Shown here piece after piece: positions 5,911 through 50,100 of a stretch of 50,327 bases of DNA; position 1 is the first letter of the stretch, and each line of letters starts with the position of its first letter. Origin of the DNA: an uncultured Coriobacteriia bacterium (GTDB lineage Bacteria; Actinomycetota; Coriobacteriia; Coriobacteriales; QAMH01); contig CAOKAE010000012.1 of NCBI GenBank assembly GCA_948466335.1, positions 1-50,327 of the forward strand, in the 5' to 3' direction. Made by a program: the position numbers and the translations under genes. Under the pieces are notes generated by a model. That model worked only from the letters and a program-made list of their open reading frames with translations. It was not told where the DNA came from and did no database searches.

Positions 5911-7697
5911 GCTTTGCCTACCCCGGCGCCGCCACGGGCGCCCTCGATGACGTGAGCGTCGAGGTGGGACGCGGCGAGTACCTGTGCGTCTGCGGCAAGA
6001 GTGGCTGCGGCAAGACGACACTGCTGCGCCAGCTCAAGAGCGTGCTCACACCCCATGGCACACGTTCGGGTGCCGTGCTGCTCGACGGCACGGTCCTTGA
6101 CGAGGTGCCGTTGGCGACCCAGGCACGACGCATCGGGTTCGTCATGCAGGACCCGGACGCGCAGATTATCACCGACAGGGTCTGGCACGAGCTGGCCTTC
6201 GGGCTTGAGAGCACGGGGTGCGAGGAAAGCGCACTGCGCCTGCGCGTGGCCGAGATGGCGAGCTACTTCGGCATCGGGGACTGGTTTCACCGCGACGTCT
6301 GCGAGCTTTCCGGCGGCCAGAAGCAGCTGCTCAACCTGGCGAGCATCATGGCGATGCAGCCCGACGTGCTCGTGTGCGACGAACCGACGAGCCAGCTCGA
6401 TCCTGTCGCCACCACCACCTTCCTCGACACGGTGCGCCGCATCAACCGTGACCTGGGCGTCACCGTCATCATGAGCGAGCATCGCCTCGAGGAGGTCTTT
6501 GCCTGCGCCGACCACGTGCTCGTGCTCGACGAGGGCCGCGTGACGGCCCAGGGCACGCCGCGCGAGGTGGCCGCGGCATTGCACGCGGCGGGCGACGCCA
6601 TGACGTTCGCGCTCCCCTCCCCCGTGCGCGTGTACTACGGGGTGGAGGGCGTGGAGCCTCGGCAGAGGGAGGACGCACGAGACGAGTTCCAAGAATCGGA
6701 AGGAATCTTGAGCATAGGGTCGCGGAATGGGGCACGTCAGAGCGAGTTCCGCAGCGACTGGTTCGGCGTTGCCGAACCACAAAGCGAGGACTGTCTGAGC
6801 TCGGACGTGCCCCGTCCCGCGATCTTCCCCTGCCCACTGACAGTCCGCGAAGGTCGCAAATGGCTCGTGGAGCGCGTGCTCGCCGACCCGCCCGCCCGCG
6901 TGGCAATGGCCGATGAGGGCTATGGGATGGATGGACGCGAGATGGCCGTCGAGATGCGCGAGGTGTGGTTTCGCTACGAGCGCAACGCGCCCGACGTGCT
7001 GCGCGGCGCGGACCTGCGCGTCCCGAGCGGCTCGCTGTTCGCGATTGTGGGCGGCAACGGCAGCGGGAAGTCGACGCTGCTCAAGTGCCTGTGCGACGTC
7101 GCGCGCCCCCAGCGCGGCATGCTGCGCGTGCTCGGCCACGACATCAAGGGCCGCAGCAGAAACGACCCTACCCACGGCGACGTCGCCATGCTGCCGCAGG
7201 ACCCGGCCAACCTCTTCTCGAAAGGAAGCGTGCGCGAGGAGCTTGCCGAGATGGCCACACGAGAGGAGCGCATCGCGGCCGTGGCCCGTGACTGCGGAAT
7301 CGAGAGGCTGCTCGACGCGCACCCCCTCGACCTTTCCGGCGGCGAGCAGCAGCGCGTGGCCTTGGCAAAAGTGCTCCTGACCGAACCGCGGCTCCTCCTG
7401 CTCGACGAGCCGACCAAGGGCATCGACGCCTTCTTCAAGCGCTCGATGGCCGCGCTGTTGCGCACGCTGGCCGAACGCGGCGTCACCGTCGTCATGGTCT
7501 CGCACGACGTCGAGTTCTGCGCGCGCCATGCCGACCTCGTGGCGCTGCTCTTCGATGGCGCCGTCGTGACCACGGCAACGCCACGGCGCCTCTTCTCGGA
7601 CAGCGCCTTCTACACGACGGCGGCCAATCGCATGAGCCGCAGCGTCTTTGCCGGCGCCATCACCGACGAGGACGTGATCGAGCTATGCCTGGGCTAG
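5883..7697 (+). CDS. ECF transporter fused A-A' ATPase with in-frame palindromic insert
   Basis: A 604-residue protein joining both ECF ATPase subunits. Half one (~1-235): Walker A GKSGCGKTT (38-46), signature LSGGQKQLL (142-150), Walker B VLVCDEPTSQLD. Half two (~352-604): GGNGSGKST (390-398), signature LSGGEQQRV (484-492), Walker B LLLLDEPTKGID. Both sets of catalytic motifs are complete. GTG start at 5883 with AGGGAGG upstream. The linker (~245-350) is unusually long and hydrophilic. Residues ~279-314 are encoded by a large palindrome (6720-6822; 19-base arms with two mismatches, inner 9-base hairpin), which looks like a repeat element inserted in frame. Energises vitamin import at the inner face of the membrane with the T component encoded before it and the S component after. 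Confidence 0.9.
   Translation: MALFALEHLSFAYPGAATGALDDVSVEVGRGEYLCVCGKSGCGKTTLLRQLKSVLTPHGTRSGAVLLDGTVLDEVPLATQARRIGFVMQDPDAQIITDRVWHELAFGLESTGCEESALRLRVAEMASYFGIGDWFHRDVCELSGGQKQLLNLASIMAMQPDVLVCDEPTSQLDPVATTTFLDTVRRINRDLGVTVIMSEHRLEEVFACADHVLVLDEGRVTAQGTPREVAAALHAAGDAMTFALPSPVRVYYGVEGVEPRQREDARDEFQESEGILSIGSRNGARQSEFRSDWFGVAEPQSEDCLSSDVPRPAIFPCPLTVREGRKWLVERVLADPPARVAMADEGYGMDGREMAVEMREVWFRYERNAPDVLRGADLRVPSGSLFAIVGGNGSGKSTLLKCLCDVARPQRGMLRVLGHDIKGRSRNDPTHGDVAMLPQDPANLFSKGSVREELAEMATREERIAAVARDCGIERLLDAHPLDLSGGEQQRVALAKVLLTEPRLLLLDEPTKGIDAFFKRSMAALLRTLAERGVTVVMVSHDVEFCARHADLVALLFDGAVVTTATPRRLFSDSAFYTTAANRMSRSVFAGAITDEDVIELCLG
6720..6822. repeat. In-frame palindromic element within the ECF ATPase gene
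   Basis: Outer arms 6720-6738 and 6804-6822 are 19 bases each with two mismatches, both compatible with G-U pairing in RNA. Nested inside is a perfect 9-base hairpin, TGGTTCGGC/GCCGAACCA (6759-6767 and 6771-6779). The middle carries GCGAGTTCCGCAG and GCGAGGACTGTCTGAGC, words that recur in the palindromic element at 30.8 kb. The reading frame of the ATPase runs through without a stop. Confidence 0.75.
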
Positions 7698-18520: not shown

Positions 18521-18616
18521 GCTTATACATGGCGTTTGCATGGGACGGTTCCGGCGACGAAACCGCTCACGGGCCGGCTCTCGCACCCGATTCGGCTCGC
18601 GCCCAACGCCGCGAAA

Positions 18617-18650
18617 GAACTCGCGCGCACAACCCGCGCGCTCAGACACC
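18617..18650 (-). repeat. Copy of the TCTGAGCGCGC...GCGCGCGAGTTC repeat
   Basis: Read on the minus strand it carries TCTGAGCGCGC, about eight variable bases, then GCGCGCGAGTTC, the same order as at 30808-30838. The two halves can form a GCGCGC stem. Confidence 0.55.
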
Positions 18651-18814
18651 TTTCGCTAAACCCGCGTTGGTCGAAGCCCGAATCTGCTCAAGATGGCCCG
18701 TGAGCGGCCCCGTTGTCGGAATTACAAAGTCAGCATAATGAAAGCAACGCTGCACGCTCTCCCTTACTACACCGCAGCTTGGCTGTGCACGTAAAGGGAA
18801 AGGAGGGTGGGCAA

Positions 18815-28717: not shown

Positions 28718-29367
28718 TGAACGAGTCGCAGTCGTCCGTGCGCATCGGTCCCATCTCGCTGTTCGCCCTCATCGCGGTGATCTGCCTCGCCACGCTGGCC
28801 GTGCTCTCCATCACCACGGCAAACGCCAGCTATCGCCTCACGACGCTGCAGGCCGACTCCATGGCGCAGCAGTACCAGGCCGAAATCGCCGCCCAGAACT
28901 TCCTGGCCCGCATCGACGCCCGCTACGCCGACGCCACGAGCGCCGCGACGCGCGCGGCCCAGAGGGCGGCGGCCGAGAAGGAGGCGGCCGAGATCGCGGC
29001 CCGCGTGAACCCGGACGCCGCGACCGGCACCGCAACGACGGGGACGGCCACGGGCGATACGACGACGAGCGACCCCGCCACGACCCCGGCCGACGCCGCG
29101 ACCGAGAACGCCGCCGTCGCCGCCGGCTCGCTCGCCGAGGCGCTGCCCGCAATCTGCGCCGAGGCAGCGGCGGCCACCGGTGACGTCATCGACGTTGCCG
29201 CGCAGCTCGACGGCTCGACCGTCACCGCACAGTTCACCTGCCCCAGCGGGCGCGTCCTCGACATCGAGGTCGAGCTCGGGCCGGGCGGGACCTATCGCAT
29301 CACCAAGTGGAACATGACCGCCAAGGTCAACACTGCCGAGACCGATACCCTTTGGTCGGGCATGTAA
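28717..29367 (+). CDS. Pilus-operon membrane protein with Thr/Ala-rich linker
   Basis: A 216-residue protein with a membrane helix (~10-36), a coiled-coil-like Ala/Glu stretch (~38-90), a Thr/Ala/Asp low-complexity linker (~95-135) and a C-terminal domain of about 75 residues ending in WSGM. The N-terminal helix plus extended linker suits a protein that reaches through the cell wall. TGATG overlap with the previous gene. No database family is recognised. It is followed after 65 bases by pilT, still on the same strand. Confidence 0.6.
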   Translation: MNESQSSVRIGPISLFALIAVICLATLAVLSITTANASYRLTTLQADSMAQQYQAEIAAQNFLARIDARYADATSAATRAAQRAAAEKEAAEIAARVNPDAATGTATTGTATGDTTTSDPATTPADAATENAAVAAGSLAEALPAICAEAAAATGDVIDVAAQLDGSTVTAQFTCPSGRVLDIEVELGPGGTYRITKWNMTAKVNTAETDTLWSGM

Positions 29368-29432
29368 GGAAGAGGACGATAGACAAGGCGGATGCACAGG
29401 GCGTTTGCCTTGCCCAAGGAAGGGAAAGGGCC

Positions 29433-30509
29433 ATGTTACTTTCGGAGCTCCTGAAGCAGATGATCGACCTGAAGGCGTCGGACATCTTCGTGGTGGCCGG
29501 GCTGCCGCTCACCTACAAGGTCAACGGACGGCAGGTGCGCATGGAGGGCGAGCCGCTCAAGCCCGAGAGCACGCGCACGGTCGTCGAGGCCATCTACGAG
29601 ATCGCCGGGCGCGACTTCAACGGGTTTCTCGCCAAGGACAACCTCGACGAGGACTTCTCGTTCGCGCTTCCCGGCATCGGCCGCTTCCGCGCCAACGTGT
29701 TTCGCCAGCGCGGTTCGCTGTCCGCGGTCATCCGCGTCATCCCCTTCGGTCTGCCTGATCCCGAGGAGCTGCACATCCCCGACAGCGTGCTCAAGCTCGC
29801 CGACCTCACCAAGGGCCTCGTGCTCGTCACCGGACCGGCCGGTTCCGGCAAGTCGACGACCCTGGCCTGCATCATCGACCGCATCAACCGCGAGCGCAAC
29901 CGCCACATCATCACGCTCGAGGACCCCATCGAGTACGTGCATCGCCACGAGAACTGCATCGTGACCCAGCGCGAGGTCCCCACCGACATCGCCACCTACG
30001 CCGAAGGCCTGCGCAGCGCCATGCGCGAGTCCCCGGACATCATCCTGCTGGGCGAGATGCGCGACGCCGAGACCATCGGCATCGCGATCACGGCGGCCGA
30101 GATGGCGCAGCTCATCTTCTCGACGCTGCACACCAACAGCGCGGCCGGCACCATCGACCGCATCATCGACGCCTTCCCCGCCGAGCAGCGCCACATGATC
30201 CGCATGCAGCTGTCCCTCGTGCTCCAGGCGGTGGTGAGCCAGCAGCTCGTCCCGGCCGTCGACGGCACGACGCTGCCGGTCTTCGAGATCATGGTGGCCA
30301 ACGCGGCCATCCGCAACCTCATCCGCGAGGAGAAGACCTACCAGATCGACTCGATCATCGCCGCCGGCGGACGCGAGGGCATGCGCACCATGGACCAGAG
30401 CCTGTTCGAGCTCGTCAAGGAGGGCAAGATCACGGCCGAGACGGCGTTGCGCCACAGCATCCACCCGTCGTCGCTGGAGCGTCGCATGGAGACCGAGGGC
30501 GTCAAGTAG
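29433..30509 (+). CDS. pilT: Type IV pilus retraction ATPase PilT
   Basis: A 358-residue hexameric secretion ATPase of the PilT group, which pulls pili back by disassembly. Walker A GPAGSGKS (134-141), Asp box (~160-170, TLEDPIEYVH), Walker B IILLGEMRDAET (203-214), His box STLHTNSAAGTIDRIIDAFP (230-249) and the AIRNLIRE motif (292-299), diagnostic for PilT/PilU over the extension ATPase PilB. ATG at 29433 follows a long AAGGAAGGGAAAGGG; upstream in-frame codons read through the previous intergenic DNA. It closes the operon and is followed by a strong terminator. No pilB, major pilin or prepilin peptidase is in the window. Confidence 0.93.
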   Translation: MLLSELLKQMIDLKASDIFVVAGLPLTYKVNGRQVRMEGEPLKPESTRTVVEAIYEIAGRDFNGFLAKDNLDEDFSFALPGIGRFRANVFRQRGSLSAVIRVIPFGLPDPEELHIPDSVLKLADLTKGLVLVTGPAGSGKSTTLACIIDRINRERNRHIITLEDPIEYVHRHENCIVTQREVPTDIATYAEGLRSAMRESPDIILLGEMRDAETIGIAITAAEMAQLIFSTLHTNSAAGTIDRIIDAFPAEQRHMIRMQLSLVLQAVVSQQLVPAVDGTTLPVFEIMVANAAIRNLIREEKTYQIDSIIAAGGREGMRTMDQSLFELVKEGKITAETALRHSIHPSSLERRMETEGVK

Positions 30510-30589: not shown

Positions 30590-30620
30590 AAGGGAGACCC
30601 GCATGGGGTCTCCCTTTTGC
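30590..30620 (+). terminator. Intrinsic terminator of the pilus operon
   Basis: AAGGGAGACCC-GCATG-GGGTCTCCCTTTT, a perfect 11-base stem ending in a T-run, 80 bases after pilT. Confidence 0.92.
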
Positions 30621-30663: not shown

Positions 30664-31003
30664 GAGGGGACAGACCCTTGGGTGGCAGGAAGGCGATCGG
30701 GGGACAGACCCTTGGGTGGCAGGGCGGTGATTCGGCAGGCGACGGACGCGCCAGGCGAAGCCCGATTGCAGAAGCGAGGAAAACGCGAGGCGGTCTTGCG
30801 AGGACTATCTGAGCGCGCCGGTCTTGCGCGCGAGTTCCGCAGCAGTCGAGTGTTTTCGAGCTTCGGTTGCAATCGACTGGCGAGCCCGACGCGTCCGTCG
30901 CCTGCCGGGAAACCAGGGATTGGAACCAGGGGTCTGTCCCCCGATTGTCAGAGGGGACACGGCGAAGGGGACAAAGGAACGAGGGTCTGTCCCCCGGGTG
31001 TCA
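30664..31003. repeat. Four GGGGACAGACCC/GGGTCTGTCCCC repeats in opposed pairs
   Basis: Two copies read GGGGACAGACCCTTGGGTGG (30666-30685, 30700-30719) and two read the reverse (GGGTCTGTCCCCC at about 30930 and 30984). They flank a 173-base palindrome, so the whole ~340 bases can fold back on itself. A fifth copy stands alone at 25132. Confidence 0.7.
30734..30906. repeat. 173-base palindromic element
   Basis: Perfect 17-base arms GGCAGGCGACGGACGCG (30734-30750) and its reverse complement (30890-30906). They continue inward with matching GGC/GCC words and then CGATTGCA/TGCAATCG plus GAAGC/GCTTC. The centre contains GCGAGGACTATCTGAGCGCGC and GCGCGCGAGTTCCGCAG words, shared with the in-frame element in the ECF ATPase gene and with 18617-18650. 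No ORF inside. Confidence 0.75.
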
Positions 31004-32530: not shown

Positions 32531-32606
32531 ATGGCAGGATACAGAACGGCTTACAGGGGCTCTGAGCACGTCGCGGTATTGGGACGTTGCGCTGCTTGAG
32601 ACGGAG

Positions 32607-32690
32607 GAGATTTCTCGACTCCGCAGCCTTCGGCTGCTCCGCTCGAAATGACAAGGGAGGGGCAATCGGCTGCTCCGCTCGAAATGACAT
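32607..32690. repeat. REP-like repeat with partial tandem copy
   Basis: GAGATTTCTCGACTCCGCAG, a GCAGCC-TTC-GGCTGC hairpin and CGCTCGAAATGACA (32607-32653), then a second GGCTGCTCCGCTCGAAATG ending near 32690. Same ends as the copy at 8467-8511. Confidence 0.65.
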
Positions 32691-35337: not shown

Positions 35338-35421
35338 GAGACAAAGTGGTCAGGCCAATTTGTCTCATTTTTATCCTATACCTGTAAGTAGTGGGACAAA
35401 TTGGCCTGACCACTTTGTCTC
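35338..35421. repeat. Nested double palindrome with 27-base perfect arms
   Basis: Arms 35338-35364 and 35395-35421 are exact reverse complements, 30 bases apart. Each arm region is itself nearly palindromic (GAGACAAA ... TTTGTCTC around GTGGTCAGGCCAA), so two alternative folds exist: one long hairpin or two short ones. It lies between the adhesin operon end and the sensor gene start. Confidence 0.85.
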
Positions 35422-35512: not shown

Positions 35513-38164
35513 TTACTCTTCGGAGGAATCCTCGTCGTCATCCTCGGAGCCGTCTTTGCCAAAGCCAAAGAAGCGCGCGATCCTCTTGCGCAGGCGGAAG
35601 AAGAAGCCGCCCGCTCCTGCACCGGCACCTGCAGTTCCCGCTGCACCAGCACCTGCTGCACCAGCCGCTCCGGCGGCACCTGCAGCACCGGCGGCACCGG
35701 CCGCTCCAGCTGCACCCGCAGCCGCGGCACCGGCGGCGCCCGCTGCGGCAGCACCCGCTCCCGCGCCGGCGATGGACAGTCCCACGCCCACGACGCCCGC
35801 GACAGCCGCGACACCGACGCCCACAGCGGCGATGGTGCCGACGACCTTACCGGTGTCGGTGGCCATGAAATCGGCGATGCCGCCGAAAATGCCCTTGTCC
35901 TCGGCGCCGATGGTCTGGATCTCGTCAATGACGGGAACCTCGATGGTCGGCTCGACGGCCTCGGCGATCTCGGCCGCCTCGGCGGTCGGGATGTACGAGT
36001 TGCCACCGCGGCCACCGTAGGGCGTGTAGCCGTTGGCAGAACCGTTGAGGCTCGGATCAGCCGGCGGCGCAGGAGGCGTCGTGGGCTTCATCGGGTCGGT
36101 GACCGGGACGTTCGGGTTATCCGGATGCTCGTTGGGATTGGCGGCGGTGTCGAGCTCCCACATCGCGTAGAGCGTGGAGGAGGCACCGTCCTTGTCGGCC
36201 AGGACGCCGGCCTTGAGCAGCGCGGCAAGCGTCTCCTTGTCGGAGAGCGTGATGCCGCTGCCATCGGCCCTGGTGTTCCAGCCCTTGAACAGGTAACGCT
36301 CGCGCACGAGGGCGGCGGCCCTGGTCAGGATGTCCTCGCTGCCGTAGGTGACCGTCATCGGATTGAGCGTTCCGTAGCCGCCGTTGGCATCGTAGTTGAT
36401 CGTATAAGTATTAGCGGCGAAGACCGCCGTAAGGGTGATGTTGTGGAAGAGCGAGAGTCCGGTCTTCTCGTCCAGGTACTTGGACAGGCCCATGACAACC
36501 TCGGCCGTGAGCTTCTCGCGGTCGCGAATGGCCTCGGGCATGTCGGCCAGGGCACCGCTCAACTTCCAGGTCACGAAGTGATGGCCCACGGACGGATAGG
36601 CGGTGACGCCCGCGATGGTCTTGTCGGAGCTGCCCTTGACGAGGCCCTCGCCCGCGCTGACGGTCTGGGTCACCGTGGAGGTCTTGTCGCTGCTTCCGGA
36701 CTGCACCGTGCCGCCGGGCTCGACGGTGTAGATGATATCCACGAAGAGCTGCTTCCACTGGGCGTAAAGCTTCATCACATAGTTACTAGCGAGAATGCCC
36801 GTGCCGGAGATATGATCGCCGGCCTTGTAGGTCGTGCCGCTACCATCGGCCTTGGTGTTCCAACCCACGAACTCGTAGCCGAAGCGCTTGAAGCCCGGCT
36901 GGGCTATGGTGCCGCCATGGGCGACCGTCACCTGAGTAGCGGCGGTGCTTCCATCGTCGCCTCCATTGGGGAGGTAGTCGATGGTCCAGTCGCGCTCGAT
37001 GGCAGCGTCGATGATCCAACGCCACTCGATTCCGGGATACTCGCCGTCGCCATAGGGCATGCCATGGGACGAATTGCAGACGACTCCACTCGGCATGCCC
37101 TTGTCGTCAAGGACGATCGAGATGGCGTCGATCTTGTAGAGGTCGAAGATGTAGTACATGGTGCGATCCACGCCGTCGATCGTTTCCACGTACGGGACGA
37201 CGTTCCAATAGGCGTCGTCAGACGGGGACAACACGAGGCGCAGCTCAGAAGTATTGGTGCGCGCGAGATAATATTGACCAATCTGCAAAAGATAAAAACC
37301 GGCGTAGGAACCGTCGGAAATGGCAGTAAGAGACCAAAGGATGGTCTCTTCCATTTCCGGATTATAAAAACTGGTGATTTGATTTTCTTTTTCGCCCAAC
37401 CAGAAGTTGTCGTTTTTGTCCCACCGGATGAAGTACTCACCACTCTCCAGTGGGTGCGACACATCGTATAGCGTACCTGACGGAGCGTTGTTATCTTGAG
37501 ACGTCAGCGTGATAGCAGTGGCAGCAAAACTGCTGCTAGATGCGTATACATCACACTGTTCGTCAGAGTTGTCAGTGATAGGTGCGGGGCTCGCGTCGCG
37601 CTCCTCGGAAGGAGCGGCGGGCGCCTTGGACTCATCGGAATCCTCATCCTTGGGGCCACCGTTTTGCTCGCGGCCATCCTCGTCGAGGGTCGAATTCTCG
37701 TCGTTTTTCTCGGAGTCGGCATCGGTCGCCTCGGACGGATCGCTCTGCTCGGAATCGGCGTCGAAGGTCTCGCCCTCGGTCGCGTCCTCGTCGGCATCGG
37801 CATCCTGGGCATCGTCGCCCTCGATGGCGTCTGCAGCGTCCTCGTTCGTATTCACGTCCGTTGAAACGTTGTCTTTGCGCTGGTCGGCGTCCTCGAGAGC
37901 GCCATCCGGAGCAACTGCGGGGTCGGAATCTGCCACAAGCTCCGTATTCGCCTTCTGAGGTGCGGTGGCATCTTGGGCCTTATCCGAACCCATCTGGGTA
38001 TCGGAAACGGCTTCAGACGCCAAAATATCGCGTTGGTTTTGCGTGCCCTCGAAATCGGATGCAGACGCGAACGCGGGAGCGCCCAGAGCGAGCACCCCCA
38101 GACACAGCACCAGGGCCGCAGCGAGCAGCCCCAGTTTGCGCTGTATGTCACAAGCACGCGTCAT
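35513..38164 (-). CDS. Exported InlB-repeat protein with acidic linker and Gly/Ala-rich C-terminus
   Basis: An 883-residue surface protein. Signal peptide ~1-33 (APAFASA); acidic Ser/Glu/Asp-rich linker ~35-200; a domain ~205-375 with repeated Trp/Tyr motifs, loosely like ricin-type lectin repeats; then InlB B-type (Flg_new/Listeria-Bacteroides) repeats ~390-700, with hallmarks GYEFVGWNTKADGSGTTY and KLYAQW. Then a Pro/Thr spacer, an EIAEAVEPTIEVPVIDE stretch and a ~90-residue Gly/Ala segment with (GAA)n repeats. The end is basic (RLRKRIARFF) then acidic (DDDEDSSEE). The Gly/Ala part may be one or more membrane helices that anchor the protein. No LPXTG-like site. It starts in the TAATG overlap with the giant adhesin gene. 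DNA for ~205-300 is more AT-rich than the rest. Confidence 0.8.
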   Translation of the reverse strand: MTRACDIQRKLGLLAAALVLCLGVLALGAPAFASASDFEGTQNQRDILASEAVSDTQMGSDKAQDATAPQKANTELVADSDPAVAPDGALEDADQRKDNVSTDVNTNEDAADAIEGDDAQDADADEDATEGETFDADSEQSDPSEATDADSEKNDENSTLDEDGREQNGGPKDEDSDESKAPAAPSEERDASPAPITDNSDEQCDVYASSSSFAATAITLTSQDNNAPSGTLYDVSHPLESGEYFIRWDKNDNFWLGEKENQITSFYNPEMEETILWSLTAISDGSYAGFYLLQIGQYYLARTNTSELRLVLSPSDDAYWNVVPYVETIDGVDRTMYYIFDLYKIDAISIVLDDKGMPSGVVCNSSHGMPYGDGEYPGIEWRWIIDAAIERDWTIDYLPNGGDDGSTAATQVTVAHGGTIAQPGFKRFGYEFVGWNTKADGSGTTYKAGDHISGTGILASNYVMKLYAQWKQLFVDIIYTVEPGGTVQSGSSDKTSTVTQTVSAGEGLVKGSSDKTIAGVTAYPSVGHHFVTWKLSGALADMPEAIRDREKLTAEVVMGLSKYLDEKTGLSLFHNITLTAVFAANTYTINYDANGGYGTLNPMTVTYGSEDILTRAAALVRERYLFKGWNTRADGSGITLSDKETLAALLKAGVLADKDGASSTLYAMWELDTAANPNEHPDNPNVPVTDPMKPTTPPAPPADPSLNGSANGYTPYGGRGGNSYIPTAEAAEIAEAVEPTIEVPVIDEIQTIGAEDKGIFGGIADFMATDTGKVVGTIAAVGVGVAAVAGVVGVGLSIAGAGAGAAAAGAAGAAAAGAAGAAGAAGAAGAAGAAGAAGAGAAGTAGAGAGAGGFFFRLRKRIARFFGFGKDGSEDDDEDSSEE

Positions 38165-41100
38165 TAGTTCTCTTCCTCTTCCTCGCGGCGCCTGCGTGCG
38201 ACGAGCAGCAGGAGCAGCATGAGGGCGGCGATTCCGGCCAGGGCCTCGAGGCTCAGGGTCATGGCCTGGTCACCGGTGCGCGGCGGACCATCGACCACGT
38301 AGCTGCCCTCGAAGACCGGCGTGAGCTCGATCTCGCCCAGCACGGTGAGCTGGGACAGGTCGTCGACGTGACCCATGGTGACCTCACCGGTGTCGGCGTT
38401 GGTCATCTTGTAGTCCCAGCCGGCGAAGCTGTGGCCGTAGTCAGCCCAGGGGTTCAGGCCGTCGATGTAGGACTGCGGGATCTTCTCGCCCCAGACCACA
38501 TCGGTGTCGCCCACGTTCACGGAGCCGCCATCCTTGGGAGGCAGGACGTGCACGCCGTAGGAGTTGATGCCCCACTCGGCGTAGAGCTTCATACCCTCCT
38601 CGGGCATGACCAGACCGGTCTGGCCCAGGGCGTAGTGCGTACCCGTGCCGTCGGGCTTGGTATTCCAGCCCTTGAGCGTGTGGTGGTTCATACCGAAGTT
38701 CGAGCCACCGTCGAGGTTGAAGGTCAGGCCATGGGCCGTCGTGGTGGGATCGATGGAACCCCAGCCACCGTTGGCGTCGTAGATGACGCTCGCGTCGGCG
38801 TTGCGCTCGAAGCGGGCCATGTAGGTCGCAGCGTAGAGGCGGCCGTCGTTGGCGTGCTTGTCGATGGAGAGCTCGCTCTTGTCGTCGCGGAGCATCTTGA
38901 GCACGTTGGCGTAGGTGTTACCGGCCTGGGCCAGCATCTGCGCCTTCATCTCGGGGGTCACCAGGACCCACTCGACGAAGTGGTAGCCGGGCTTGGCGGT
39001 GGCCACGGAGTGCAGCTTGGTGCCCGCGGAGGAACCCTCGTCCACCGGCTGGAGCGTGACGGCGCTCACCTTGTCGACCACGCGGTCGATGGTGCCGTGC
39101 TCCTCGTTGGAGACGGTGTAGGTGATCTCGATCACGAGCTCCTTCCACTGAGCGTAGAGGACGATCTTCTTCTGCTCGTGCTTGGGATCGAGGTATTCGG
39201 AGACCTGCTTGTAGGTCATCGTGTTGTCAATCTGCAGACCCGTGCCGTCGGCCTTGGTGTTCCAGCCGGCGAACTCGTAGCCGTTGGGGGCCGCGTCGAG
39301 CTCGGCGTCGTTGCTCTTGTCGAAGCCGCCCTCGTTCCAACCGACGTTGTGCATGTTGAGCTTCTCCTCGACGTCGATCGGGGTGCGGTTGTCGGGCACG
39401 ACGGTCAGAACGTTGCCGTTCTTCTCGGGGTCGTTGTTGAGGTCGTAGATGACCTCGAAGTCGTTGGCGAGCGTCCACTGGGCGTAGAGCGTGATGCCCT
39501 TCTCGAGGACGGTCATGTCGTCGATGCCCGCACCGTAGATCCACGCGGCGATCTGCGCGTAGGTGGCGTCGGCGTCGAAGCTGTGGCCGGAGCCGTCAGC
39601 CTTGGTGTTCCAGCGGGCCGGCTTGTCGAGCAGGCGGTAGCCAACGCGGGTCGGCTCGGCCGTGGCCTTGGCGTCCGGCTTCTCGTTCCAGGTCAGACCA
39701 GTGATGATCTGGGCCAGCGTGCCCTCCTCACCATAATTAGTGGCGAGGTTGAGCTTGAAGTCGCTGATCGCGTTGTAGATGACCTTGAGGATGTTGCCCT
39801 CGGCCTTGGCGATCAGGCTCGGCATGGTGCCGGGGATGGTGTAGCCCATGGGACGGTGCGCCTTGACGATGGCCTCGCTCACGGTGTAGCGGGCGCCCTC
39901 GTAGACGACCTGGTCGGCCTCGGAGAAGTGCACGGTGTCGGGCAGCTTGACCTGCGTGCCACCATCGTTGGTGTAGAACTCGATGGTGACCGGGGCCCAC
40001 TTGACCCACACGGCGTACAGCACGATGGCGTTCTTGGAGGAGCTGTCATCGCGATCGCTGATGCCCAGGAGCGCGGCAAGCGTCTTGAGGTCGATGGTCG
40101 CACCCGGCGCGTACTTGGTGGGCGTGGCGCCACCGGCGGGACGGACCTCCCAGCCCATCCACTTGTAACCGGGCTTGTTGTACTTGTTGAGGGTCGCCGG
40201 GTCGCTCAGCGGCACGTTGCTCGTCCAGCCGAAGTTGTTCTTCGTCAGGATCTCGACGTAGTTGCTGTCGGCACCGTTGGTGTCGTCGGCCCAGATGACC
40301 TTGTAGTTGCGAGCCTTGAGCTTGGCGTAGAGCGTGATGGACATGATGGTGTCGCGCTCGACGCCATGGATGCCGCGGACCACGTTGCCATAGGTCATGG
40401 CAGCGGTGATGTCGTGCAGGTTGCCGGCGGCGTCCTTGTACTGCCAGCCATAGCCCTCGATCTCGTAACCGGTGATGCCGGAGACGGAGCCCGTGAAGGC
40501 GAGGTCGTTGGTGGTCCAGTACACGTTCTTGTCGCGCTTGCCGACGTTGATCGTCTTGCCGTCGAGCTCGACGACGTAGTTGATGACGTAGCCGGTCTTG
40601 GGCGCGTAGAAGATCTTCAGGACGATGGGCTCGCCGTTGGCACCCAGACCCGCGGTGCTGTAGACACCGAAGGGATCGCAGGAGCCGGCCACGTAAGCCC
40701 AGCCCGGGCAGCTCGGCATGGGCAGGGTGCCCGGCAGCGAGCTGGTCTGCGTACCAGAACCGGTGATGGTCAGGGTCGAGCCGTTGGGCTTGATGGTGAC
40801 GGTGGTGCCCTCGACGGTCGTGAACTTGTTGGGCCAGTTGGTGGGGATGGCCTCGGTGGTCACGACGAGCTTGCCGTTCTCGTCATAGCTGAGCTTGTAG
40901 ACGAGGATGGTGAACTCGACGTTCTTGGCCCAGATCGCGCGGACCTGGACGTTGGCGTAGGGCATCGTGAAGTGCGCGCCGCTGTTGGGCATCGCAACCT
41001 TCTTCTCGGTGCCGTCGGTCGGATCGGTCCAGACGGCCTCCCAGCCGGCGAGGCTCATGCCCGCGAGTGTGGCGCCCGGAACGTTGACGGTGACGGTGCC

Positions 41101-44100
41101 GAAGGCCTGGGAGGGGCCGGCGTTGCCGGTCCAGGTACCGGTGGCGGTGCCGTTGGTGCCCAGGTCGTAGGTGATGTCGTAGGGGATGCGGTTGTAGTAG
41201 ACGATCAGCTCGGTGGTGCCGTTGGCCTTGACGAAGGCGCGCAGCAGCTCACCGGTGATGCCGGTGACGAACTTGAGGCCGTAGTACCTGCCGGTCGTGG
41301 TGTCGAGCAGGTGCGCGTAGGCGGGGTTGCTCGGATCGGTCACGTCGGCAGTGCCCTCGGACTCGATGTCCGTGAACTTGCTGGAGGTCAGCTTGTTGTA
41401 GCCCGTGCCGCTGATGTCCTGAACCATGTAAGTAATGGTGTACTCGGTAGCCGCGGGGGCGAACAGAGCGTAGTAGGTCACGGGCAGCCAGCCGCCGTCG
41501 GGACGATGCGGAGCGATCTTGGAGCTCCTGATGATCGTGCCGTCGAGCGAGTTGGTGACCCAGGCGTTGACCAGGTCGGTGGGCAGCGGGATGGTGCACT
41601 CGGCGTCGAGGTACCAGCCCACGAACTTGTAACCGGGCTTGGCCGTGGCGGTGGAGCCGGCGGCGACGGCCTTGTTCGGGTCGGTGATGGGCTCGCCGAA
41701 GCTGGACAGCGTACCGCGGACGGTGGTGCTGCCGGACGGCGTGCCGATGGCGTAGTTGATCTTGAGGCCGTCGAAGCTCCACACCGGGACGAAGACCACG
41801 GAGTGGGCGGGCATCTTGAAGGTGCCCGTGTAAGCCTGAGCGGAGAGCTCGCCGGCCTGGATGACACCGTCGCCGTTGGCGTCGGTCCAGATCTTCCAGC
41901 CCTCGAGCGTGTAGTTGTCGCGGGTGATGTCGCCGGCGGTGAGCAGCGTCACGACCTGGTCGGTACGCGGCTTGGGGGCGACGGCGTAGTCACCGGTGGT
42001 GCCGGCGGTGCCGGGGATGCCGGAAGGCGTCCAGGTGCCGGTCTCGCCGGGCATGCCGAGGGAGAAGATCAGATCCTGCTCCAGGGCCTCCCAGATGGCG
42101 ACGAACTCGACGTTGCTGCGGACCTCGAAGTCCAGGGTACCGGCGGTACCACGCAGCGAGGAGGTGTCGTAACCGGCGCCGCTCGGGGCGATCCAGTAGT
42201 AATTGGTGCCGTTGATGGACCAGGTCCAACCCACGAAGCGGTAGCCGGCGGCCGCGGGAGCGTTCTGCGTGCGGTCGACGCCGCCGATCATGAGCGGGAT
42301 CGTGTTGACGTTGGGGTTACCGGACACCTCGTCGTCGGCCACGATGGTGCTCGTGAAGCCGGTGCCGCCATGGTTGTTGGGACCATTACCCGGGCCGTAG
42401 CTCACGAAGAAGGTCTGGGCCCAGATGGCGGTGAAGGTGGTGTCGCAGTTGATGATGACGCTGTCGGGATCCTGCGTCGTGTAGGTCACGCCGTCGGCGC
42501 CCACGTAGCTCCAGCCCGCGAAGACGAAGTCGTAGTCGGGGGTGACGGTGATGTTCTTGGAGCTGCCCGTGGAGCTGGCGTCGAGCAGGTTCTTGCCGTG
42601 GCTCACGGTGAAGGGCATCGAGGAGCCCGGCTTGACGGCGACGGTACCGCCCATGCCCGGCGTGGAGTCGGAGCGGAAGGCGACGTTGTGGCCGTTGCGC
42701 GACCAGACACCCACGATGGTGACGGGGCCGTCGGGCATGGTGAAGTTGGCACCGTTGGCGTAGGTCTTGGTGACGGCCGTGGTGGAGCCCTTCTCGGTGT
42801 AGCTCACGGTCCAGCTGAAGGTCCAGCCGTCGTTGGCGGGCATCGTCGGGATGACGAGCGGCATGCCGTACTTCTGCTCGGTCGACGAGGAGGTGATGCC
42901 CGTGGAGGGATAGACCGGGACCGGCAGGGTCTCGGGGGCGTCAGCGCCCGGGGCGGCCGGGGTGACCGTCACGTTGTAGGCGTTGCGCACGTAGTAGAGC
43001 TTGAGCACCTTGCCGGGAACCAGCGGATCGATGGTCTCGATGGAGCCGGTGACACCCGGAGTATAGGTGAAGCCCTTGATGTTCTTCTTCATGGCGTCGG
43101 TGACGACGACGGTGGAGTTCTCCTCGCCGCTGCCGTTGCCGTTGGGAGCCAGGGTGGGATCCTGGGCGTAGGTGCCGTCAAGCTGCTCGAGCCAGTACTC
43201 GATGGTGTAGTCGATCTGACCCAGCGGCGTGAAGCGGGCCTCGTAGGTGCCGCTCGTGAAGGTGTCGCCGGTCTTGACGACGGTGAGCGTCGCACCGGAG
43301 GTGACCAGGACGCCGTCCTTGTACCAGCCGATGAACTTGTAACCGGCGTTGGCGGTGGCCGTCACGGCGTGGGGCGTACCGGACACGGCGTTGATGTCCT
43401 CGTAGGCGGAGCCGTGGTTGGGCACGTTGATGACGTTGTCGGCGCTCTTGGCGGTACCGCCGGTCTGCGTGGTGTAGGTGATGCGGACCTGGTCGGCCTC
43501 CCACTTGGCACGCAGGGTCACGGACGTCAGGGTGTCGTCACCCAGCGCGATGGCGGAGAACTTGGCGCCGGCGGGCACGTCAACCCAGCTGCCGGAGGCG
43601 TTCTTGTACTGCCACTTGGGCGGGTAGTAGCCCTCCCAGACGGGAACGTCGGAGCCCGTGGGCGTCAGGTTGGTAGAGTTCCAGCCCACGTTCTTGTCGG
43701 CGGGCTTGACGACGGTGGAGGGAGCCGGGTTGCCAAAGGCATCGGAACCCAGGTCGTACTTGACGGTGAACTGCTTCTCGACCCAGTAGACCACGAAGGT
43801 GACCTTGGCGCCGGAGACGACGTCAGCGGCGATGGAGGTGGTCTTGGTGTCGGGACGGCCGGCACCGGCAGGCCAGTTGACGACCTGGTAGACGTAGCCC
43901 TTGAGCAGAGCGTTGCGGTTGGTGCCGTCGGGACGCTCGAACTCGGCGATGTAGTCATGGGTGTTGAGGTTGGTGATGTCGGCGATCTGACCCGGGGTCA
44001 TGTAACCCGTGACGCTGCCGACCTGCTTGATACCGTTGGGATCAAGGGTACCCGGCGTGTTGGTCATGAAGTCGACCGTGTTGAACTGGATCTCGAAGAT

Positions 44101-47100
44101 CGCGTTCTTGATGAGGTCGGCGGTCAGGATGAAGGTCGCACCGTCGGCAGGCGTCGGCGTGCCGTCAAAGGCGGAGACGTTGAGCTTGCCGTCGGACTTG
44201 AGCCAGGTCTGCTGCGTGCCGCCAGCCGGCGTGTACTTCCAGCCATTGAGGAAGGCCGAACCGTCGGACACGGCGTAGTCGAAGTAGTCGATCTGGTCGT
44301 TCCAGGTCAGGCCGCTGATGGGCGTACGCAGGTCAGCGCCCTTGTCGTCCACGAAGCGGACGGTGAAGCTCTTCTGGTCCCAGATACCGTAGAGGGTGAT
44401 CTCGGTCCTGGTGTTGTCCGTGGTACCGAAGAGGCTCTGGTACAGGGCGGAGAACACGGTGGAGTTGTTGACGGTCATGCCAGTGTTGGCCGTCGTGGAG
44501 CTCCACTTGATGAAGTCGTAACCGGGGACGGTGAGGGTCTCGAAGCCGGAGGCCAGGAGGTTTGCCTGCGTCCAGGTCACGGTCTTGTCGGCGATGGCGG
44601 GGCTGGTGCCCTCGGGGTAACGCGCGTTGTAGTGGATCGTGTAGGACTTCTCGTTCCACTTGGCGAACAGCGTGAGCTCGGCGGTGCCGTCGGCATTGAC
44701 GGTCTTGCCCGCGGCGGCCAGCGCCTCGGCATAGGTCATAGTATTAGTGAGCTTCGAGGCAGCGGAGAAGTCGGCCTTCGCGTACCAGCCGTCGAAGTCG
44801 TAACCCTGCTTGGAGACGTTCTTGGCGTCGTTGCTCATGATGGTGTTGATCACGGCGGTCCAGCTCACGGACTGGTTGGCGGGATGGGGCGTGCCGCCGT
44901 TCTCGTTGTAGATGATGGTGTAACCGGTGCGCTCTTCCCACGTGGCGGTGAACACCATGCCAGGGCCCGTGATCTTGAGGGCCTCGAGGGTGGCGTTGGA
45001 GTAGGTCTTGCCGTTCTGGTCGACCCACTGCTTGAACACGTAGCCCGTGGCCGGCGTGGTGCCGGGGCGCGCAGAGCCAACCGCGTTGTTATAGGTGATC
45101 TTGGCGCTCTTGTCGGCGGTGGTGCCGTCGCTCCAGGTGCCATGGTCGCCCACCTTGAAGGTGATGTCATACTGCTCGGCCTCGAACTTGGCGTAGTAGG
45201 TGGCGGTGGCGTAGACGCCGCCGGTCTTCTGCGGCTTGAGGGTGTTGTCAGCCGAGACCCAGGAGGCAGGCACGGGGTTGGTGCCGGCCGCGTCGGTGAA
45301 CCAGCCAAGGAACTTGTGGCCGGTGCCAGCCGTCGGCTTGGAGCCGGCGGGCGTGCCCGAGACCATGCCGAAGCTCGTGCCCTCGTTGTTCTTGGAGAGC
45401 GTGCCCATGGAGGCCGAGCCCGTGGCGGTGGTGTAGGTGATGGTGACGAGCTTCTCGCGGAACACGGGGTACAGCGTGACGCCGTAGCCAAAGTCCACGC
45501 CGGCCATGTTGTAGAGGGTCGGGTTCTTGGTACCCGGCGTCATGGTGAAGCTCGTGGTGTAGAGCGTGCTCGTGCCCTCCTTGTAGGTGGCGTCGAGAGT
45601 CCAGCCCAGCAGCTCGTAGGCGCTCGGGTTGGTGGTCATCTTGTAGGTGGCATCCTTGGGCAGCGTCACGCTCTGGCCGGTCTTGGCGGTCACGTCGGTG
45701 GCGCCGGTGCCGGTCAGGCCGCTCATGTTGGCCACGTTGTTGTCGAAGTGCAGCTGCTGGGTCGTCTCGACGTAGACGGCCTCGAACTCGTAGGACATGT
45801 TCACGACGGTGGGCATGTTGGCGCCACCGGTGCGCACGAAGGTGCCGGCGTTGTAGTAGCCCTCGACGGTGCCCGTGGAGCCATCGTCGGCCGTGAACTT
45901 CCAGCCCGTGAACTTGTAGCCGGGCTTGGCCTTCGGGTTGCTGGCGTTGCGGTCGCCGGCCGGGTCGAAGGCGCCGCCGTACTGCGGCAGGTTGATGCCG
46001 GCCTGGAGATTCACGTAACGGGTACCGGGCTGGGTCACGACGCCAGAAGTCACGCTACCGTTGACCTCGGTGAAGCCGCCGGTGCTCGGTGACGTGTAAA
46101 CGACGGAGAGCGTCTTGCCCCAGCGGGCGATCATGACGGCATGGCCGTTGCAGGTCCACGGCGTGGACACGGTGCCATCGGTACCCAGCAGCGCAGCGGA
46201 GGAGATGATGCCCATGTTGGTGCCCGTGGACTCGCTGCCACTCGTGGTGCAGTTCTCGTGGACCTCCCAGCCGAGGAAGTAATAACCCACCTTGGCGGTG
46301 GTCGTGGGAACGGCCGACAGCTGGTCACCGAAGTCGAGGCTATAGCTGGTCGTGCCGCTCAGGGTACCCTGGGAGGTGTTGGAGTTCTTGAAGGTGACGT
46401 TGAACTTGTTCTTGGCCCACACGCCCTCGATGGCGACGGCGTTGTTGGGCATGGTGAAGCTGTTGGAGCTGATGGTGACGCCGCCGGAGACGACCTTCCA
46501 CCCGGTGAAGGTATAGCCGGTCACGGTGGCGGGGACGGTCAGGTTGACGGTGGCACCGTACTTGACATCCTGGCTGGCGGGCGTATAGACGACGCCGGCG
46601 GGAACGTCGCCGCTGTAGCTCACCTGGACCTTGTTGACGTTGCGCTTGAAGTAGAGCTTGATCACGTTGCCCGCGGGCGTGCCGCCGATGGTGATGGACT
46701 TGGCGGTACCGGTCTTGGCATCGTCGTAGGTGAAGCCCGTGAAGGACTTGCGCACGATGGTGATGGTGGTGCCCGCGGTGCCGGCGGTGGTGCCGGCCGT
46801 GACGACATAGCCAAAGGGAGCGGTGTCGCTCGTGGTGGCGCTGCCGTTGATGGTGTAGGTGGTGTCGCTGTTCACGTCCTGGAAGTAGTACTCCACGGTG
46901 AAGCCGATGCCCTTGGGGCTCACGGTCAGGTAGTAGTCGGCCGTGGTGTACAGGCCACCGGTCTTGGGGACGGTCAGCTTGCCGCCGGCGCCGATGTTGG
47001 CGGCGGCCACGGCGGTGCCGCTATAGGCGCCCACGGCCCACTTGGAGCCGCTCGTGGCGGAGTACTCGTGGTTGGAGTCGATGACCGGCGTGACACCACC

Positions 47101-50100
47101 GGAGATGTTACGGCCGCTGATGGGCGTGGTGGCCGTGGCGCTCGCGTAGATGGCGCCGGTGGCCGCGCCCACGTAGAGGATGGTGCCGTCGGTGTAGCCG
47201 GCACCGGCAAACTGCAGCGTGGAGTAGTTGTCGCTGTAGAAGCGGATCTGGACCTTGTTCTCCTCCCACTGGGCGTAGAGCGGAAGCGTGGCACCGCTCG
47301 CGACACCGGAGAGGTTGAAGATGGCGTTCACGGCGTTGCCGCTCGTGACGACCTTGCCGCTGCCGTCGGCGGCGGTGTTCCAGCCCTTGAAGGTGTAGCC
47401 GCTACGGCTGGGGTTGGAGGTGGGGACGTTGACCGTGGTGGTAGGCTGCACGTTGGCGGTGGTGGTGTTGGGCGAACCGCCGTTGGCGTTCCACTGGATA
47501 GTATAGGTGTAGGGGTTCCAGATGGCGGTCAGCACGGCCGTGCCCTTGAGGGTGCCGGCAGCCGAGTCGCCCGACCAGACGATCTTGAAGTTGGCAACGG
47601 CCACGGAGGCGCCGGCGGCGGCAACGGTGGCGTTGGCGTTGCTGGCGTTGGTGTAGGACCAGCCGCCATGGTTGAAGCCGGTACGCGTGTAGACGGTGCT
47701 GCCGGCGGGAACGGCGAGGTTGGAGCCGTAGTTGGCGCTCATGGTGTAGGGGTCGGGCGTCTTGAGCGACGTGACGTCGGTGGCGCCCTTCTCGAAGGTG
47801 AAGGTGACCGGGGCGGCGTTCCACTTGGCGTAGAGCGTCTTGCTCGAGGTCAGGTTGTTGAAGACAGCGCCGGCCTGGTAGACGGTGCCGGTGCCGGCGG
47901 CGTTCTCGGTCCAACCGGCGAAGTTATAACCCACGCGGGTGGGGTTGGTCACGTTGGTGGGAATGGTGAAGGAGCCACCATTGAGGATGTTGCTCGTGGT
48001 GTCAACGCCCGTGGTGCCCTTGTACTGGCCGCCGTTGGGGTTGAGGGTGAAGGTCACGCGGTCCTTCTCGGTCCACTTGGCGTAGAGCTTGATAGTGGTG
48101 GTGGACTCGTTGGCCTGACCGGCCTTCTGGGCGTCGAGCCAGAGCTGGTTGAAGCCCTTAGCGGCGCTGAACTGCGTGCCGGTGCCGCTGCCGTTGGAAT
48201 CCTTCTGCAGGAACCAGCCACCAAAGGTGTAACCGGTCTTGGTGGGAGCGGTGGGCAGGGTGATCTGGGCGGTCCAGTTCTTGTTGGACTGCGTGTTGTA
48301 GGCGGTGCCGTCACTGGCACCGGAAGACTTGTCGTAGAAGACGGCGGAAAAGCCCGTACGCTCGGTCCACTGTGCGTAGAAGACCGTGGCGGTGGTGATG
48401 TTGCCCGTCTTGCCACCGGCGGCGTAGGTGGTGCCGGTGTTGGCGATCTTCCAGCCCGCAAAGGTGTAGCCCATGACGGACGGGGTGGTGGTGGGCAGGG
48501 TGTAGGGCGTGTTATAGGTGACGGTGGTGGAGCCGGGCAGACCGGTGACGCTCGTCACGGCACCCGACGGGGTGTTCGCGTTGAAGCTGATGGCGGGGTT
48601 CGTGGCCCACTGCGCATACAGCGTGGTGTTGGCGTTGACGGTGAAGCTGGCACCGGGGGCGTAGGCCGTGCCGCTGCCGTTGGCCGCCGTGTTCCAGCCC
48701 TGGAAGACCGCGCCGGTCTTGGTGAAGGTGTTGGCGGCAACCGTGTAACTGCTGCCGGCGGCCACCGTGGAAGAGGCCGGGGCGCTGCCGCTCGTGGAGC
48801 CATTGCCGTTGTAGCTCACGGTGTACATGGCCGTCCACTTGGCGTAGAGGTTGACGTTGGCGGTCACGTTGTTGATCGTGGCGCCCTTGGCATAGGTCAC
48901 GGCACCCGCGGCGGTGGTGGCCCAACCGTCGAAGCGGTAGCCCGTCAGCGTCGGGGTGTTGTTGGAGATGGTGTAGTTGCTGCCGTGGTTGACCTTGCCG
49001 TTGGCAGGCCAGCTGCCGGGGTTGGCCGTCACGCCGGACGGCTTGTTGTAGTTATAGGTGACGGTGTACTCGTTGGGCTTCCACACGGCATAGAGGGTGT
49101 AGTTGCCCCCGTCGGCCGGCGTGCCGTTTCCATCTATATTAGTGAGGGCGGCGCCAACGGCGTAATCGGCCGTGTTCGCATCGGAGGTCGTGGCCCAACC
49201 CAGGAAGGTGTGACCGGTCTTGGCCCAACCCGTGGGCATGGCCTCGGCAGTGGCAGCAAGATTGTCATAGGTGACAGTCTTATTGGAGCCAGAGGTAGCA
49301 CCGTTAGTGTTGTAAGTGACGTCAAAAGAAACAGTAACCTCATCAGCTTTGGAAATCCATCTAGCTCCCGAATTGTAGGCTTCATTATAGTCCTCTGTAG
49401 ACGTCCTAATGTTATGGAGGTGATCCACAAGGTCACCCAGGGTATACGTTGCCCTACTTTTATCCAGAGGATTGGAGAACGAAGTATCCGTGGCAGCATA
49501 GAACTTGAATGGATCAGTGAGTCTGTAGCCTGTGGGGACGTTAGCAGAGCTGGGTATCGTGATTTCCTGATCCCAAGTAAATTGACCAGACATGCTATCT
49601 ATCGGCTTGTTATCCATATCAATAAACTCAACAGACTTGCCCGCAGGGGGAGCCCAGATGCAATAGATATGGAAATCAGTCATCATGGCATTATTGATTT
49701 GCGTAGAGAACCTCTTGAGGTTACCGTTGTTCTGCATAACCGCACCATAAGTAGTAGTGGTAGTTCCACCCATAGTTCTCGTCATCGTAAAGGTCATGAA
49801 CCAGTTCTTGATTTGCATACCATAACGCTTAGGTCTGTCGTATGTAGCAGCCAACGCAGTAAGGTCAGTTCCAGTGACAGAATCACCAGCACGGACAAGG
49901 AACTTGCCAGTAGAACTATAGATAGGATCCAGCCTATTGCCAACGGTAATGTCCGGAGTCCTTGGAGTGCTCTGAGCACCAGCCACAGGAGCAGAGAACG
50001 AATCAAAGAAATGAATCGTAATAGTATCTCCGGCCTTTTGCGGCTCGAGGTCCGTATAACGCACGGGCCCATAGACTTCATCAGCACTCGGCTGCAGGTA

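Follow-up and report, generated by a model that had tools for sequence, protein, structure and literature searches.

REP, REPIN and BIME sequences, together with their RAYT genes, are the closest described counterparts of the outer part of the palindromic locus considered here, and the setting of REP doublets as inverted repeats that form hairpins is known as the REPIN layout (PMC3116915). The locus resembles these systems in that its outer words are short, of high copy number, arranged as opposed doublets and clustered by a RAYT-like gene, and it differs from them in that 100 of the 111 copies are packed into 77 kb, in that 15 copies lie within one giant open reading frame, and in that the inner hairpin belongs to another family.

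For this inner hairpin, several other classes of element offer partial likenesses. With MITEs and with repeats of the ERIC, NEMIS and Correia type it shares a length of 100–200 bp, the absence of coding sequence and genes, dispersal, a palindromic build and presence or absence between relatives, whereas it is conserved at its centre and each copy has terminal inverted repeats of its own. The conserved terminal inverted repeats of MITEs were not found, the arms being unrelated among copies, nor was a consistent target duplication seen. Rickettsia palindromic elements (RPEs) occur in intergenic DNA as well as, in frame, within protein genes; by layout alone the inner element is similar, since it lies between genes and also in frame (at C7:63620 and its ortholog, and at 6718–6824 of the window), although in-gene copies are a small minority. 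Integron attC sites, with their R'/R'' boxes at the stem base and their integrase, were considered because they too combine variable stems with fixed bulges, but the conserved part of the inner element is central, not basal. Template switching is a documented process that makes and mends perfect stems (PMC8794818), a strand being copied backwards in a single event; the stems described below would be alike in this, except that they are centred on a conserved, dispersed core and not at unrelated sites.

The palindrome complex behind the pilus operon

The window, i.e. the whole 50,327-nucleotide stretch analysed, is contig C12 of a genome from an uncultured Coriobacteriia gut bacterium (G000; 1.89 Mb in 35 contigs), which was compared mainly with a sister species (G006, about 94% identical in many stretches) and an outgroup (G005), all as draft assemblies. 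The gene upstream of the palindrome (29307–30509) matches T2SSE and is a type II/IV secretion ATPase, consistent with the pilus operon that a first-pass annotation, made from the letters of the window, had placed there. The features of the site are collected in Table 1.

Table 1. Features of the palindrome site and further copies of the inner element in the window
Feature	Position	Strand	Remarks
Derived in-frame copy	6718..6824	+	ABC ATPase linker; strands B and A swapped (circularly permuted)
Second full copy in window, subtype II	18549..18721	-	covariance model hit 18569-18701, E 3e-12; arms
Terminator-like hairpin, ordinary, with T run	30590..30618	+	AAGGGAGACCC-GCAT-GGGGTCTCCCTTTT; behind pilus operon, outside element
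REP word GGGGACAGACCC, outer left 1	30666..30677	+	exact match
REP word, outer left 2	30700..30711	+	34 bp past outer left 1
P1 outer stem, left arm, site-specific	30733..30750	+	18-nt perfect complement of 30890-30907
Second module GGCGAAGCCCGATTGCAGAAGCG, left half	30754..30776	+	common to a subset of copies (alignment)
Conserved strand A, TTGCGAGGACTATCTGAG	30796..30813	+	nearly invariant in subtype I and distant genera
Apical hairpin P3	30814..30829	+	from fold; 3' strand continues into strand B
Conserved strand B, GCGAGTTCCGCAGC	30830..30843	+	pairs with A, fixed bulges left over
Second module, right half	30860..30886	+	alignment of copies
P1 outer stem, right arm, site-specific	30890..30907	+	complement of left arm
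REP word, outer right 1, opposed	30930..30941	-	exact match
REP word, outer right 2, opposed	30983..30994	-	exact match

The palindrome, first reported as 173 bases with perfect 17-base arms, is real and measures 175 bases (30733–30907), its arms being perfectly complementary over 18 nt and 92% complementary over 24 nt. Its predicted fold reaches -105.6 kcal/mol, compared to -75.9 ± 4.3 for 200 shuffled sequences (z = -6.9), none of which folded as well. The opposed pairs of GGGGACAGACCC reported on both sides are exact at all four positions, and their surroundings are complementary (30696–30715 pairs with 30926–30945 at 95%), in agreement with the proposal that some 340 bases can fold as one extended structure. 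Mechanical ORFs do overlap the palindrome, so the remark that no ORF lies inside fails to the letter; since none of them has a Pfam match, it is right in spirit. The left P1 arm was not found in any other copy in the alignment of copies.

The site is built of two unrelated palindromic layers, viz. the outer REP doublets and an inner copy of a hairpin element. The earlier view of one dispersed family with a modular build therefore stands as regards dispersal and modularity and falls as regards the single family, because GGGGACAGACCC is part of a RAYT/REP system, whereas the inner palindrome, having a core of its own, is a member of another family.

Other repeats were noted nearby. A repeat with TCGAAATGACA (in reverse, TGTCATTTCGA) at 32600–32690 of the window occurs dozens of times in G006, frequently in opposed pairs, and is also present in the REP region of C1. 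An inverted pair at 35338–35421, GAGACAAAGTGGTCAGGCCAATTTGTCTCA, is 97% complementary and resembles the REP pair flanking C1:95039; palindromes of this kind replace the hairpin element at orthologous sites. The minus strand at 38164–50220 holds a 4018-codon open frame that looks like a giant repeat adhesin, its repeats being about 50 bp long. At the start of contig C61 of G006 (1–74), the reverse complement of the palindrome's left half stands beside its right arm, so the interior looks flipped relative to the window, which may be an assembly end effect.

REP words and RAYT-like genes

A genome-wide search found 111 exact copies of GGGGACAGACCC and none of the reversed control word. The crowded 77 kb (C1:194–271 kb) surround a RAYT-like gene, C1:207963–208760, which has two of the words about 180–230 bp upstream and clusters of them on either side. 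Its Y1_Tnp match scores 23.7 bits in the genome search (cut-off 23) and 21.5 bits, below the cut-off, with the ORF alone; in NCBIfam the sole match is REP_Tyr_transpos (E 9e-20, 71.1 bits, cut-off 80). The other RAYT-like gene of the genome, at C1:95039, has a different palindrome, TGAGACAAACTTGTCTGACCAATTTGTCTCA, on its flanks. Because each RAYT-like gene thus has a palindrome or word of its own, GGGGACAGACCC is taken as the REP of one of the two RAYTs, and the outer doublets as satellites of the gene at C1:207963, a RAYT-like (Y1 transposase) gene.

The local crowding of REP words in C1:194–271 kb is striking, and the same region contains several ORFs resembling molybdopterin oxidoreductases. 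The giant reading frame mentioned above (C1:188034–206759; 6241 codons, adhesin-like by eye) holds its 15 exact REP words unbroken.

Distribution and core of the inner element

A covariance model built from 16 copies, with copies counted at E below 1e-6, detects the inner element 23 times in G000, 25 times in G006, four times in G005 and once in each of two further genera. Across the order it was found in 15 of 249 genomes and in 13 of 100 sampled genera, which is a lower bound because stricter filters were used; among named relatives, the closest that possess it belong to uncultured Coriobacteriia and Eggerthellaceae, and two of these came from deer. Within the window, the segment at 18.6 kb, previously said to share words with the palindrome's centre, is a full family member with a 46-nt match to the palindrome site. 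Shared words had also been noted in the in-gene element at 6.7 kb, where both conserved strands are indeed present in swapped order, in the linker between the two ABC_tran domains of protein P0001.

The core, GCGAGGACTGTYTGAGC-hairpin-GCGAGTTCCGCAGC, is highly conserved among copies. At the genus level two strands are conserved, A with TTGCGAGGACTRTYTGAG and B with GCGAGTTCCGCAGC, or else variants related to them, the corresponding strands of subtype II being AGCGAAAGGTGTYTGAG and GAGTTCTTTCGCGG; in other families of the order A, B and the general build persist and all remaining stems differ. The two strands pair so as to leave two fixed bulges, one of a single base and one of six bases, and 9 of the 10 pairs of this helix are invariant, while the apical hairpin P3 differs among copies in size and sequence. 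The flanking stems vary among copies and yet pair (94.3% of cells paired), with double changes in 14 of 16 pairs of the helix adjoining A/B and in 20 of 39 stem pairs altogether, a result equalled by none of 500 shuffles and which collapses when columns are slid by one to three positions. Uniqueness in the genome and a failure of pairing in related strains had been named as the observations that would speak against a family; instead, copies are dispersed and pairing is conserved. A module of about 26 nt (GAGTTTCCCTAAAGGGACTAGCTTCGCGTCGCCGCACG replacing GAGTTCCGCA) differs in presence between the two species at four orthologous copies, in both directions.

A string resembling the second module, GGCGAAGCCCGATTGCAGAAGCG, occurs in another repeat adjoining the C14 copy. 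In a distant genus, one copy (core 1501–1626) spans 286 bp in total and its arms score 81 complementary bases, and in another family copies from two genera lie at the same place behind a gene which we take to be secY, as read from its C-terminal sequence and not by family search; their stems differ and are well paired.

No Rfam match in the window exceeded the gathering score and lax thresholds gave nothing credible, the best weak match being a microRNA model at 25.8 bits (gathering score 168) on both strands. The core words were not found printed in the literature searched, a search for Coriobacteriia palindromes found none, and the sole match to GGGGACAGACCC was in a paper on trypanosome Rab proteins. 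The inner element is apparently a family not previously described.

Position relative to genes

With gene neighbours taken from ORF calls scored by codon usage, which is a heuristic, most copies of the inner element have one arm no more than about 25 nt from the stop codon of a neighbouring gene. Among the exceptions are the 18.6-kb copy and the palindrome site itself, which lies 210 nt downstream of the pilus gene. Orientation follows no rule: 15 copies have the same orientation as their neighbour and 16 the opposite, 15 lie between convergent genes, two between divergent genes and two inside genes. In-frame copies in genes include those at C7:63620, with its ortholog, and at 6.7 kb in the window. 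The neighbours look by eye like housekeeping genes of many kinds and show no functional theme, their names being putative where we read them from sequence and not from a family search. Compared with intrinsic terminators, the 3' position fits; the flanks, read by eye, are mostly without a T run.

Arms at orthologous sites

Arm ends were traced by RNA fold for 53 copies. The outer arms are site-specific and near-perfect, with 731 of 797 aligned positions complementary. Copies at C12:30755 and C1:144801 have cores that are 88% identical and outer arms that are unrelated, so the arms do not travel with the core. At orthologous sites of G000 and G006 the element may be shared, may be replaced by another one with other arms, or may be missing, and element-free sites sometimes have another palindrome instead. 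At C7:37453, C3:105763 and C9:38910 both species have an element with unrelated arms, the ortholog of the first (contig C27 of G006) being in the other orientation. In the intact pair C2:103196 and C149 of G006, six stem pairs have changed on both sides and are still Watson–Crick, and eleven ortholog pairs together show 37 double changes, compared to about 2 expected by a rough estimate from the overall rate with the sides taken as independent. An assembly artefact was rejected as the source of the palindromes, because in the separate sister-species assemblies both flanks have orthologous DNA on either side.

Two loci bear on where the arms come from. The membrane-protein gene at C7:63620 carries the element in frame in both G000 and G006 but not in G005, which reads IVKLVKDASRRKDNALALVCFL where G006 reads IIRIVRHEGDAVAEAD-core-VRLRDCIPLLCFL. 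The right arm aligns to the old coding sequence (RLRDCIPLLCFL vs RRKDNALALVCFL); for the left arm, which reverse-complements the right, no clear counterpart is apparent, and the arms are paired at 22 of 22 positions in each of the two species though arm sequences differ between them. The alignment suggests that one arm is ancestral coding sequence of the host and that the other is an inverted copy of it. The second locus is C83 of G006, compared with C15 of G000, where the element-free allele has the left arm but lacks the right, with TCG as junction microhomology; an outgroup search for this site gave no match. We infer from these two comparisons that one arm was copied from the other; at the other element-free sites no arm was recognisable. 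Candidate target duplications are TTAAC at C2:143688 and TCG at C83 of G006, and none is obvious in most copies.

Origin of the hairpin

The explanation that we favour, and to which we give about an even chance, is that the inner element is a non-autonomous hairpin element and that its arms arise by template switching on the target DNA. The conserved core would be the moving part, recognised as a folded strand by some putative nuclease or transposase; upon insertion, replication would switch template and copy one host flank backwards, the backward copy giving a long, perfect inverted repeat round the core, and later template switching would keep the arms perfect. No host function need be supposed, though protection or termination of transcripts could be a side effect of a stable 3' hairpin. 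Several observations sit uneasily with templating. An outgroup points to an arm that predates the element at a single locus, C7:63620, where loss of the element from G005 would be another explanation; the C83/C15 pair would look the same after a deletion between TCG repeats; the arm taken as older is the right one at C7:63620 and the left one at C83; P2 mismatches lean towards one strand; and the shared place behind secY in two genera could reflect long retention under selection.

These last points lead to the main competitor, a structured RNA, either a 3'-UTR element or a small RNA, in which pairing is selected in the transcript and the bulged core binds a protein. The double changes in 20 of 39 pairs, the conservation of the core strands across families and the position of copies behind stop codons are what such an RNA would show, and it keeps weight because the core is so widely conserved and two genera share the secY copy. 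If transcripts were selected for pairing, G.T mismatches should outnumber A.C mismatches on one strand. In P2 (33 copies) there is a mild lean of this kind, 26 G.T to 14 A.C, but the P1 outer arms show no RNA-strand bias, with 17 G.T and 14 A.C (38 copies, not all independent, in fixed windows and split by orientation). Orientation to the gene is moreover random, copies in coding sequence behave like the others, stems of 25–81 bp are nearly mismatch-free, beyond what RNA function needs, elements are replaced wholesale between sister species, and Rfam has no match at gathering scores. A process at the DNA level is favoured because of the random orientation, the in-gene copies and the lack of strand bias in P1, and a structured RNA is accordingly rather unlikely, if the most serious of the alternatives.

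Less probable again is that the core inserts into the loop of hairpins already present at gene ends, such as terminators or REP pairs, P1 being the old target hairpin. Unique, near-perfect arms beside stop codons, the place of the palindrome between opposed REP doublets, the nesting of the inner core in the second module and the ordinary terminator hairpins at some element-free orthologs in other genera all agree with this, but the arms at C7:37453, C3:105763 and C9:38910 are unrelated though both species have elements, outgroup hairpins are by eye unlike the arms, and the outgroup of C7:63620 is without such a hairpin, just one arm looking old. Mobilisation of the inner element as a folded single strand by a RAYT or other Y1 (HUH) enzyme, in the manner of a large REPIN, seems very unlikely: the bulged hairpin core does resemble the type of substrate that Y1 enzymes bind, and the genome has two RAYT-like genes, but each of these is flanked by its own, different REP family, the core motifs were not found within about 1.5 kb of either gene, and MITE-like elements are conserved at their ends and free in the middle, the reverse of the arrangement here. 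That the whole 340 bases are one RAYT-derived REPIN or BIME, as the single-family view would have it, is hardly credible; REP doublets set as hairpin-forming inverted repeats are indeed the REPIN layout, but the core is present at 22 other places in the genome, GGGGACAGACCC framing was seen round no other copy viewed, and these copies without REP words largely refute it.

Implications of the proposed target-templated arms

Compensatory change in stems is usually read as proof of a functional RNA. The same covariation signal is found here in copies inside coding sequence and in either orientation, with outer stems that lack strand bias, which fits copying at the DNA level. Beyond the favoured account of templated arms, we tentatively suggest a class of mobile element that transmits only its bulged hairpin core and reverse-copies host flank into a private, near-perfect stem at each site, a wider claim that is possible and more doubtful than the mechanism itself. 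If copying at the DNA level is right, the family would be a natural experiment through which bacterial template switching could be measured, a caution for covariance-based discovery of RNAs and a source of new in-frame protein segments, and the hunt for the factor that recognises the core, which is conserved across the order, would be directly testable.
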